In this document: in pieces, positions 17,052-19,811 of the stretch
How the letters are laid out: each line of letters begins with the position of its first letter
Numbering within the stretch: position 1 is the stretch's first letter
From: a virus
Reading direction: 5' to 3' (one strand)
Virus record (IMG/VR): IMGVR_UViG_3300045993_000344
Coordinates: 1-20,749 of that record
Length of the DNA stretch: 20,749 bases
Position numbers and translations under genes: made by a program
Notes under the pieces: model-generated
Seen by the model: the letters and a program-made list of their open reading frames with translations, nothing else
Databases searched by the model: none
Told to the model about the DNA's origin: nothing

Positions 17052-17320
17052 GACGGATCCTCGAGCGCGGTGCGAAGCGTGACGACTGCGTACCTGTAGG
17101 CGTCGGCGTAGATGTTGCTTCCCCGATACCCAGCATCTTCGTCCTCCGCTGACTTGATCCTGAGCCGCTCGAGATACGCCACGGCCGCCCGGACCCGGGC
17201 CACCTGCGCGAGGGCGGCGTCGCGCTCAGCCTCCACAGCCACGAGAGCCTGGATCGCCCCGACGTAGCTCTTGATCGCGTCAGGATCCTTCGCCGGCGAG
17301 GGATGCTCGAACACGGTCAT
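17048..17320 (-). CDS. Hypothetical helical protein
   Basis: 90 aa from the ATG at 17320, which overlaps the RusA-like stop as ATGA and has GGGAGG ten bases upstream. It starts MTVFEHPSPAKDPDAIKSYV and is mainly one amphipathic, Ala/Glu/Arg-rich helix (ALVAVEAERDAALAQVARVR) followed by a Tyr-rich segment (YRGSNIYADAYRYAVVTLRT). No family recognised. A longer in-frame extension to 17497 exists but would run backwards into the RusA-like gene and has no supporting ribosome site. Confidence 0.78.
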   Translation of the reverse strand: MTVFEHPSPAKDPDAIKSYVGAIQALVAVEAERDAALAQVARVRAAVAYLERLRIKSAEDEDAGYRGSNIYADAYRYAVVTLRTALEDPS

Positions 17321-17802
17321 GACGCGGCCACCTCCCGCGCATAGGACTCGCTGCGGACGTCCGCGCTCATAATGTCGATGACGGCGCCCGGACGATCCAG
17401 GGCGAGGAGCTCGCCGAGCCAGACCTTGTGAGCCATGAGACCCACCACCTGCGAATCGTCGGCCCAGATGCCTGAGTCGGTGATGGAGTCGAGGCATGCG
17501 CGGACGAGCTTGTCGATGTCGCCGACTGAGTGCGAGCTGGGAAACGGTGGGGATGATGCCTTGACGGTGTCTGAGTTGCGCCCTGTGCCGAAATGATTGG
17601 CGGGCCGGGCGAATGTGAATGTGATCTGCACGCTCACCGGGTCGGCTTTGAAAGGCTCACTAAGGGCGAGAGCGACTAAAGCCCGGGATCTGACATTATC
17701 GCGCCAGGGGTCCAATGTGGCGCCGTTGTCGGCGCGCATTGCCCAGCGGGTGCGGATCTTTGATCCTTGGGTGATTGGTTTGCCGTAGACCGTGAATTGC
17801 AT
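17317..17802 (-). CDS. RusA-like Holliday junction resolvase
   Basis: 161 aa starting MQFTVYGKPITQGSKIRTRW. The core GDIDKLVRACLDSITDSGIW followed by ADDSQV is the RusA signature: D95, D97 and D115 or D116 correspond to the metal-binding acidic residues, and K98 to the conserved lysine. The N-terminal beta strand with GKP and the VSVQITFTFARP strand also fit. RusA enzymes cut four-way DNA junctions as dimers, in phages resolving branched replication intermediates before packaging. GGAAGGA seven bases before the ATG sets the start; an upstream in-frame opening to 18273 is judged non-coding. Confidence 0.93.
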   Translation of the reverse strand: MQFTVYGKPITQGSKIRTRWAMRADNGATLDPWRDNVRSRALVALALSEPFKADPVSVQITFTFARPANHFGTGRNSDTVKASSPPFPSSHSVGDIDKLVRACLDSITDSGIWADDSQVVGLMAHKVWLGELLALDRPGAVIDIMSADVRSESYAREVAAS

Positions 17803-17834
17803 GGGGTCGTCCTTCCTGGGTGGAGTGAGTGGGG

Positions 17835-18092
17835 TCAGAGGGTTGGTGCGCGTTGGAGAAGCCGGTCTTCGCCCTTGCCTCTCTTGCGCCATGGCCGGGG
17901 ACCTGGGCCGTGTCGGTAGCCCCATCGGATGAGGTTGTCGATGCTCCGAGGTGTGAGGTCGGACGCTTGCTGTGCGGCCTGTTGGAGTTCTTCGACTGGG
18001 TGCCATTGGTCGTCTAGGAGCTCGTCGAGGATCGCGAGGTAGGCCGGTCGGGTGCGGATCATGGTCATGGGGTTGTATGGCGGGAAGGTCAT
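17835..18092 (-). CDS. Small winged-helix-like DNA-binding protein (candidate)
   Basis: 85 aa from the ATG at 18092, preceded by AAAGGA at a good distance. After a short N-terminal extension (MTFPPYNPMT) it has AYLAILDELLDDQWHPVEEL, then QQAAQQASDLTPRSIDNLIR, then WGYRHGPGPRPWRKRGKG. The layout helix, 'W.....EL' helix, recognition-like helix after TPRS and basic wing-like tail is that of short winged helix-turn-helix proteins in phage replication modules. It sits directly downstream of the repeat-rich region at 18150-18263, so it could bind there. The DNA-binding role is inference from pattern. Confidence 0.75.
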   Translation of the reverse strand: MTFPPYNPMTMIRTRPAYLAILDELLDDQWHPVEELQQAAQQASDLTPRSIDNLIRWGYRHGPGPRPWRKRGKGEDRLLQRAPTL

Positions 18093-18150
18093 CTCGGTTC
18101 CTTTCGGGGGACGGTGGGGGCACTCGGTGGTGCGGGCTGTCGCAGTGCGC

Positions 18151-18200
18151 GCGTCCGTACTCCCCGGTACTACGTACCTGGGGGAGGGGAGTACGGACGC
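18151..18200. repeat. 15-bp perfect inverted repeat with nested palindrome
   Basis: GCGTCCGTACTCCCC (18151-18165) pairs perfectly with GGGGAGTACGGACGC (18186-18200) across a 20-base centre. The centre itself has GGTAC-TAC-GTACC (18166-18178). A TTTT run follows on the plus strand, but there is no plus-strand gene to terminate. Origin, operator or transcript structure are all possible. Confidence 0.7.
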
Positions 18201-18262
18201 TTTTGCGCGGTCTGTAGGCCCGGTTTGGCCTACGGACGGGCCTACAGTCGGGAGTACGGACG
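18152..18262. repeat. Four copies of TACGGACG / CGTCCGTA (iteron-like)
   Basis: CGTCCGTA lies at 18152-18159 and TACGGACG at 18192-18199, 18231-18238 and 18255-18262. Two copies are part of a 14-base direct repeat GGGAGTACGGACGC (18187-18200 and 18250-18263). The cluster ends seven bases before the helicase stop and fills the 177-bp gap 18093-18269. Adjacent replication genes make an origin or a replication-linked operator plausible; not shown. Confidence 0.55.
18212..18247. repeat. 11-bp perfect inverted repeat
   Basis: CTGTAGGCCCG (18212-18222) and CGGGCCTACAG (18237-18247) flank a 14-base centre that contains a TACGGACG copy extending into the right arm. It lies between the two larger repeat units of this intergenic region. 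Confidence 0.65.
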
Positions 18263-18269
18263 CGGGTTG

Positions 18270-19811
18270 TCATGCGTCGTCCTCAAAAGCGCGGACGAGG
18301 AAGTGTTTTTGGGCGTTGTGGGCGCCGGGTTCGATCCGTAGGCAGCCTTCGAGGAGGAGGGAGTCGATGGCGGAGGCGACGTATTTGTCTTTGCCGAGGC
18401 CGGAGTCGAGCAGGGTGCGTTTGGTGGCGCCGGGGTTGATCTGGACGTATTTGGAGACTTTGACCATGTAGCCGGTGAGGCGGGGCCGGCCGTCTGCAGT
18501 GGGGACCCAGGTGGATTCGGTTAGTGACCAGGTGACGGCGGTGGGTGAGCGGGCCGGGTTGGGGGTCATGTGGAGTTCGGCGACGGTGTGTCCGACGGGT
18601 CCTACGTCTCCGTGTCGGTCTTTTGCGACGACGATTCTTGAATGCCCGGCTTGGCCTATGGCGAATGATTTTGCGGCGAGCATGGAGTAGGCGGCGCCGG
18701 TTATTCCGGAGAGTTTGTGTTGGCCGCCGATGGCGAATCTTCCGCGGTTGTCTGCGTCTTTGACTACGTGGTCGATTTGCATGACGCCTGGGCCGAGGTT
18801 GGCGATGCGTCGGGGTAGGAGCTCGAACCAGTGGGCGATGTCTTCGTTGTCCATGAGTGAGAGGTTGTGCATGGTCATGGCTTCGGTGACGCCGTCGATG
18901 ATGACCAGGCGGCAGTCTTTGGTGGCGGTTTCGATGTGGGTCCAGGCGGCGGGGTTGAACGCGGTCTCGGGGCTGATGTAGCGGACGAGGCGGTCGACTT
19001 CGGCGGGGTTGGCGCCCATGTCTTCGCAGCGGGCCAGGAGGGTGTCTGCGCGGTCTTCGAAGTCGATGTAGGTGCAGGGGTGGCCGATCTCGATCTCTTG
19101 GATGAGGCCGGCGAGCATGGCCCAGGATTTGCCGGTGGTGGATTCTCCGGCGATGGAGTGGATGCGGTGGGGGTAGATGAGGCCTTGGCCGGTGTCGGTG
19201 GTCAGGACGGTGGCTTTGGGGCGGTCGACGCCGCTGTCGCGGATGTCGGCTAGGTCGACGGGTGCCCAGGTGTTGGTGGTGGTGGCGCGGTCGGTGCCGG
19301 GGACTGTGGTGGGGATGGTGGTGACGAGGTTGGTGGCGGCTTGGACGAGGGCGGGGATGTCGTTGTCGCCGGCTCCGGTGTAGCCGAGTGCGGTGATGGC
19401 TGTGCCGGCTTCGACGAGGTGGCGCAGGGTGGCTTGTTCGGCGACGATTTGGGCGTAGTAGCTGGCGCTTGAGGGTGCGGCGACGGCGTTGATGAGTTCG
19501 TAGAGGTAGGCGGAGCCGCCGATGCGACCGAGGTCTTTGGTTTTGGCGAGGTGGTCGGTGACGGTGATGGCGTCGACGGGTTCGAGGTGGGCGTAGAGGT
19601 CTGTGATGGTGTTGAAGATGACTTCGTTGGCGGGGCGGTAGAAGTCCGGTCCGGCGACCAGGTCGACGCAGTCGGCGATGGCGGTTTTGGACATGAGCAT
19701 GCCGCCGAGGACGGCTCGTTCGGCGTCGGCGTTGTTGGGTGGGGTTCGTTGTTCGTGGTCCCGGTTGCTGGGGACTGTGTGGAGGTGGTGCCGGTGGTCG
19801 TCGTTGCTCAC
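18270..19811 (-). CDS. Replicative helicase: DnaB N-terminal domain fused to RepA-like ATPase and winged helix
   Basis: 513 aa from a GTG at 19811 with GGAAG eight bases upstream. Residues about 25-130 match the DnaB N-terminal helical domain (NNADAERAVLGGMLMSKTAI; VDAITVTDHLAKTKDLGRIG; GGSAYLYEL). Residues about 195-430 are a RepA/AAA_25-type ATPase rather than a DnaB C-domain: Walker A GESTTGKS (222-229), YIDFED (248-253), Walker B LVIIDG (302-307) and DHVVKD (347-352). The C-terminal 75 residues look like a winged helix (YVQINPGATKRTLLDSGLGK, then YVASAIDSLLLEG). It should unwind DNA at the phage replication fork; the N-domain could engage a DnaG-type primase. The coding strand is markedly G-poor compared with other genes. 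Confidence 0.9.
   Translation of the reverse strand: MSNDDHRHHLHTVPSNRDHEQRTPPNNADAERAVLGGMLMSKTAIADCVDLVAGPDFYRPANEVIFNTITDLYAHLEPVDAITVTDHLAKTKDLGRIGGSAYLYELINAVAAPSSASYYAQIVAEQATLRHLVEAGTAITALGYTGAGDNDIPALVQAATNLVTTIPTTVPGTDRATTTNTWAPVDLADIRDSGVDRPKATVLTTDTGQGLIYPHRIHSIAGESTTGKSWAMLAGLIQEIEIGHPCTYIDFEDRADTLLARCEDMGANPAEVDRLVRYISPETAFNPAAWTHIETATKDCRLVIIDGVTEAMTMHNLSLMDNEDIAHWFELLPRRIANLGPGVMQIDHVVKDADNRGRFAIGGQHKLSGITGAAYSMLAAKSFAIGQAGHSRIVVAKDRHGDVGPVGHTVAELHMTPNPARSPTAVTWSLTESTWVPTADGRPRLTGYMVKVSKYVQINPGATKRTLLDSGLGKDKYVASAIDSLLLEGCLRIEPGAHNAQKHFLVRAFEDDA

Follow-up and report, generated by a model that had tools for sequence, protein, structure and literature searches.

The intergenic region at positions 18093-18269 of the window (the entire 20,749-nucleotide stretch of viral DNA analyzed here) is, with a probability of roughly three in four, the replication origin of the phage, bound by the helicase encoded immediately upstream, which would act as a self-recruiting initiator. 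As read from the sequence, this region holds an iteron array of regular geometry, placed at the 3' end of a gene for a helicase of three domains, and across the relatives of that helicase this place is conserved and the iteron sequence changes. We infer that the helicase binds the iterons, that the strands are opened and primase is recruited there, and that the region is active as an origin. The winged helices of the helicase would bind three direct iterons, spaced about one helical turn apart, and then the inverted copies, with a RepA/AAA_25-type ring assembling at the array; an extruded iteron hairpin may aid strand opening, and the DnaB-type N-terminal collar could bring in the host DnaG primase.

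Iteron array in the window and its closest relative

The original prediction described four kinds of repeat in this region, all of which are present: a perfect 15-bp inverted repeat (18151-18165/18186-18200) with a nested palindrome, GGTACTACGTACC, at 18166-18178; a perfect 11-bp inverted repeat (18212-18222/18237-18247); a direct repeat of 14 bases (18187-18200/18250-18263); and the octamer TACGGACG, which occurs four times (at 18152 on the minus strand and at 18192, 18231 and 18255 on the plus strand) and is absent from the rest of the 20,749 bases. Against these four copies, 0.46 are expected in the window, and one of 100 whole-window shuffles reached four. Taken alone, the 15-bp inverted arm is less exceptional, because at least one shuffle reached 20. 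Repeated 8-mers occupy 34 positions within 18093-18269, whereas 500 shuffles of the same DNA average 3.8 and none exceeds 20, and the strand is predicted to fold far better than its own shuffles (z -5.6).

In fact, the repeats listed above are parts of a larger array of six iterons that closes in a hairpin. The true repeat unit is an 11-bp iteron, G[A/T]C[C/T]GTANNCC (in detail, G[AT]C[CT]GTA[ACG][GT]CC over the window and its closest relative), of which the octamer is only a part, being absent from two of the six copies (GTCTGTAGGCC and GACTGTAGGCC). All six iterons lie directly 3' of the helicase stop codon, and no further copy is found in the 20,749-base record. In minus-strand order, three direct iterons at 12-bp steps (iteron 1, GTCCGTACTCC, 18251-18261; iteron 2, GACTGTAGGCC, 18239-18249; iteron 3, GTCCGTAGGCC, 18227-18237; all on the minus strand) are followed by one inverted copy (iteron 4, GTCTGTAGGCC, 18210-18220, plus strand), one direct copy (iteron 5, GTCCGTACTCC, 18188-18198, minus strand) and a second inverted copy (iteron 6, GTCCGTACTCC, 18153-18163, plus strand). 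Iterons 5 and 6 lie in the first and second arms, respectively, of the hairpin (18151-18200, minus strand), which has a perfect 15-bp stem and the inner palindrome GGTACGTAGTACC, and which has comparable hairpins in relatives.

The window array shows the clustered short, mostly direct repeats, adjoining a replication gene and rare elsewhere, by which an iteron-type origin is recognized. The main departure from textbook iteron origins is the missing AT-rich stretch: no AT-rich unwinding region is found at the window array, where the GC content is 0.61-0.69 in 120-bp windows, and the arrays of the family as a whole are not richer in AT (GC 0.68 in array regions versus 0.69 in the rest). There is also no DnaA box near the window array; such boxes are common, not universal, in iteron-type origins. 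Among the relatives, DnaA-box-like 9-mers number five in 16 kb of array region versus two in 392 kb elsewhere, at three loci, as counted with a pattern that was picked after it had been noticed. GC skew leaves no mark at the array and is uninformative as an origin marker.

No DNA similarity of positions 17800-18500 to known phages is found. The closest relative is a contig (L001) whose helicase is 78% identical to that of the window. Conservation of the repeats in related phages, on which the original prediction had been staked, is borne out by this contig, which keeps the array with exactly the same six-iteron spacing and in which the gene for an 85-residue protein also adjoins it. The 11-bp iteron occurs exactly six times in the window and exactly seven times in the 5.5 kb examined of L001, in all cases within the arrays, and the first six copies start at the same distances from the helicase stop codon in both: 0, 12, 24, 41 (inverted), 63 and 98 (inverted). 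Iteron positions G1, C3, GTA5-7 and CC10-11 are unchanged in every copy, and the differences between the window and L001, at positions 2, 4, 8 and 9, are mostly made in concert across the copies. When viral contigs were searched with the pattern GACCGCGCAAAAGCG, 111 stretches matched; of the matching loci that were fetched, only the window's own stretches and the L001 contig carry the array. The two loci also differ beyond the 85-residue gene, where the window has a RusA-like resolvase gene (17317-17802) and L001 a different gene (1960-2493), RuvC-like by eye and with no Pfam match above the cut-off, an apparent exchange of junction-resolving enzymes at one site.

Arrays across the helicase family

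A search based on the helicase returned 12 genome loci and 45 viral-contig loci, the named phages matched being MinS1 and Dagobah, and with the window 58 loci were examined, some of them near-duplicates. With an array defined as at least four copies of one 8-mer within 400 bp around the helicase stop codon (shuffle mean about 2), the automated count places an array at the 3' end of the helicase gene in 51 of the 58 loci, and for 42 of these no other sequence window in the same locus equals the array. Three arrays missed by this count (L149, L155 and L158) are recognized by eye, giving a total of about 54 of the 58 loci, and no array is found in the sequence examined of L163, L175 and L176. In L146, a complete iteron array with a hairpin (CGTGCCCC, nine copies) lies about 2.7 kb downstream of the helicase stop codon.

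The iterons themselves vary by locus (CCTCGTCCC, CCTCGCCCC, CCCCGTCCC, CGTTCCCC, TGGTTCCC, CCGATCCC, GCGTCCC and others), and a common plan recurs, with direct copies 10-12 bp apart, often one inverted copy, and then a hairpin made of an iteron and its inverse. Iteron hairpins with a stem of at least 9 bp are found in 34 of the 44 array regions of the non-redundant set, which was used for the later comparisons, versus 64 of 1083 other windows. The loops of the array hairpins (L135, L138, L159, L161, L166 and others) are often CTATAG or TCCCTACG/TCCCTTCG. The helicase gene is constant and the gene that follows the array varies, from the 85-residue reading frame of the window and L001 to a RuvC-like gene in L116 and others elsewhere.

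Relatives of the helicase are also encoded on two plasmids, pKRAD02 of Kineococcus (12.9 kb) and p-XQ-29-C of Streptomyces (7.9 kb). All seven copies of GGTGGTTCC in pKRAD02 (L180) fall within the helicase gene itself, at its 3' end (1815-1966), and in p-XQ-29-C an array of CCTGCCC begins at the helicase stop codon and closes in a hairpin. These plasmid arrays are more in keeping with a replication module than with an operator of a phage or a packaging site. The second plasmid is no proof that the module suffices for replication, because an additional rolling-circle-type Rep is apparently present, as judged by eye (Pfam gave no match). Where array copies fall within the coding 3' end of the helicase gene, the protein acquires a repetitive tail, for example of repeated VVPG; such in-gene arrays are clear in pKRAD02 and are seen by eye in L188, L189 and L191.

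Several loci show features of their own. L149 carries a separate dense repeat, CGACAGCG, 16 copies in 300 bp, about 2,400 bases upstream of the helicase stop codon. One contig of Janibacter terrae (NZ_BCUV01000006.1) has two helicase loci (L127 and L128) that are separated by about 44 kb and have the same match score; they may be tandem prophages or stem from the assembly. The helicase of MinS1 (L123/L200, MZ923504), a Microcystis phage reported as a cyanophage, is 73% identical to that of a viral contig (L157), and a table in the MinS1 paper lists many reading frames with best hits in Nocardioides and other actinobacteria; the host assignment of this phage may deserve a second look.

Candidate iteron-binding domain and alternative readings

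The proposed initiator is a helicase of 513 residues (18270-19811, minus strand), composed of a DnaB collar (residues 24-125), a RepA/AAA_25-type motor (residues about 209-353) and a C-terminal winged helix. Pfam matches are to the DnaB N-terminal domain (E 3.9e-28) and to AAA_25 (E 8.7e-08), and the nearest solved chain to the N-terminal domain is 2r5u (E 5.5e-36). In a DnaB replicative helicase, this N-terminal domain would precede the C-terminal ATPase of DnaB; here only the former is found, no Pfam model of the latter is listed, and the ATPase matches AAA_25 instead. The match to phrog_19 likewise covers only residues 18-268. As the example of gp46 of Lactococcus phage F13 illustrates, a phage protein of the AAA_25/RepA type can act as a 5'-3' helicase (PMC8965321). 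For the C-terminal domain (residues about 446-507; 18291-18476, minus strand), which is proposed to bind the iterons, a winged-helix fold is predicted with confidence by AlphaFold2 (pLDDT 91.5), and the best Foldseek matches are mostly winged helices of the MarR type, at a probability of 1.0 and with E-values of 0.006 or above. The third helix of the model is the putative recognition helix (residues 475-488; 18348-18389, minus strand), and it tracks the iteron sequence across loci.

This relationship is illustrated by comparing, over 43 loci, the distances between recognition helices (residues 473-485) with the distances between iterons, for which the consensuses were set by hand (rho 0.535; 0 of 500 permutations). 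The correlation persists when ATPase distance is controlled (partial 0.473), compared with -0.03 for the remainder of the winged helix. An automated scan, repeated with a descriptor that replaces the hand-set consensus, places the top 13-residue windows at residues 462-474. With 15 loci added (both plasmids, plus 13 drawn from a new sample of genomes), the segment starting at residue 473 ranks first of 336 and the partial correlation falls to 0.331. Among ATPase-distant pairs, Walker A windows correlate better with iteron distance than does the recognition helix (0.38 versus 0.24), and shared ancestry therefore explains part of the signal. A one-residue rule linking Arg479 to a CG in the iteron, which holds in all 32 Arg loci of the first 43-locus set (Fisher 9.8e-8), breaks down in the added loci, where by eye CG is present in about one of four Arg loci and in one of about seven non-Arg loci.

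The main competing account also takes the array to be an origin, but has the iterons bound by a separate protein (the 85-residue product, for instance, or an initiator of the host), with the helicase loaded afterwards; overall, we consider it unlikely. This is the arrangement of O and P in phage lambda and of RepC and RepA in plasmid RSF1010. The 85-residue reading frame (17835-18092, minus strand) comes right after the array in both the window and L001, DnaA-box-like sequences lie beside the arrays of three relatives, and RSF1010 has a separate iteron binder, RepC (PMC4234260). The original prediction had likewise put forward the 85-residue protein as the one that binds this DNA, a suggestion that has lost ground: in L116, L118 and most other loci the gene is not found next to the array, which is followed by different genes, and because the next gene varies in this way the product is an unlikely binder. 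It has no family match at the curated cut-off, and its single-sequence model (pLDDT 52.8) is too poor for a fold to be called. A fixed host initiator would not explain why the iterons differ between elements, and the iteron sequence follows the recognition region of the helicase. The C-terminal winged helix of the helicase is thus the better candidate.

Quite improbable, in our view, is a second account, in which the array serves regulation, as an operator or otherwise, and a repressor, or the winged helix of the helicase itself, acts there to control transcription of the genes downstream of the helicase. Its inverted repeats do lie within an intergenic gap, and the structural matches of the winged helix are, as described above, mostly MarR-type regulators. 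However, the array lies behind its conserved neighbor and not in front of it, the genes that follow vary, the array of L146 is about 2.7 kb away and that of pKRAD02 is inside the helicase gene; in addition, a scan of 17700-18700, limited to promoters of the sigma-70 type, finds no promoter-like site. The original prediction had named an operator beside an iteron-type origin, and of these two readings the origin has gained from the arrays in most loci, the shared spacing in L001 and the two plasmids, and the operator has become the less likely.

The chances are poorer still that the array serves in partition, packaging or integration, or that it terminates transcription or acts as an RNA element. 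Hairpin-bearing repeats are characteristic of sites of this kind, and in the window this DNA lies upstream of the genes for terminase, but a partition site would be expected next to partition genes rather than a helicase, and plasmids would not be expected to carry a packaging site. Against a terminator or RNA element, no run of T follows the hairpin, a terminator scan finds no terminator-like site at the array and Rfam gives no match for the region. Finally, the idea that the repeats reflect repeated codons in a small gene, one that begins at an ATGA overlap with the helicase stop codon, can practically be set aside: both the window and L001 keep the frame open, and the repeats of L001 read DRKPDRKPDRKP in frame, but the iterons lie on both strands, the arrays of other relatives are unrelated in sequence, and the differences between the window and L001 fall 8, 18 and 9 times at first, second and third codon positions (77 of 147 at third positions in the helicase control), a lack of third-position preference that a small gene does not explain.

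Proposed module and comparison with known systems

If the array is read as an origin to which its own helicase binds, a large set of proteins that now carry just the annotation 'AAA family ATPase' or 'helicase' acquires a function open to testing, and the place where replication of such elements starts can be predicted. The more than 40 distinct helicase-iteron pairs are natural material on DNA choice by winged helices and on the separation of origins among mobile elements, and compact replicons for actinobacterial vectors are suggested. More tentatively, and with the odds somewhat against it, the family could represent an unnamed, widespread module of actinobacterial phages, prophages and plasmids in which a single polypeptide carries a DnaB collar that recruits primase, a motor of the RepA type and a winged helix that binds the origin, with recognition helix and iteron diversifying together and giving each element a private origin specificity. 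If so, iterons would be predictable from the protein sequence and compatibility between elements would be explained. The arrangement was not found described for this helicase family when an open-access library was searched in full text, a scope outside which most subscription papers fall.

The closest parallels are the self-loading initiator helicases SaPI Rep and SCCmec Cch2, whose C-terminal domain binds iterons directly downstream of the helicase gene; the isolated domain of Cch2 binds its own putative origin (PMC7581432). The present family shares the position of the iterons, to which an origin role is ascribed here by inference, and a C-terminal domain on the helicase, a predicted winged helix that would bind them. 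In contrast to those staphylococcal elements, which have DUF927 and Primase_Cterm/D5 motors, the motor is of the RepA/AAA_25 type with a DnaB collar, the elements are actinobacterial phages, prophages and plasmids, and the array includes an iteron hairpin. In the alpha protein of phage P4, as described in PMC4234260, a winged helix on the helicase polypeptide binds origin repeats, the role proposed for the domain studied here; however, alpha has its own Toprim primase domain, whereas the DnaB collar may recruit the host primase.

ORF904 of plasmid pRN1 also has a C-terminal winged helix, and pRN1 needs a stem-loop directly downstream of orf904 (PMC4234260), of which, as with the hairpins here, the structure and not the sequence is conserved. 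Whereas pRN1 lacks iterons and has a primase of the archaeo-eukaryotic type and an SF3 helicase, the present arrays combine iterons and hairpin. A RepA-type helicase, iterons and hairpins are likewise found together in the RepA/RepC/RepB' and oriV system of RSF1010 (PMC4234260, PMC8965321), in which the iteron binder RepC and the primase RepB' are separate proteins, whereas here the helicase itself carries the DNA-binding domain. For primases fused to RepA- or DnaB-type helicases, C-terminal winged helices have been proposed to serve in origin recognition (PMC5862659). The best explanation of the arrangement would be that the module works like these known systems, but with a motor of another family.
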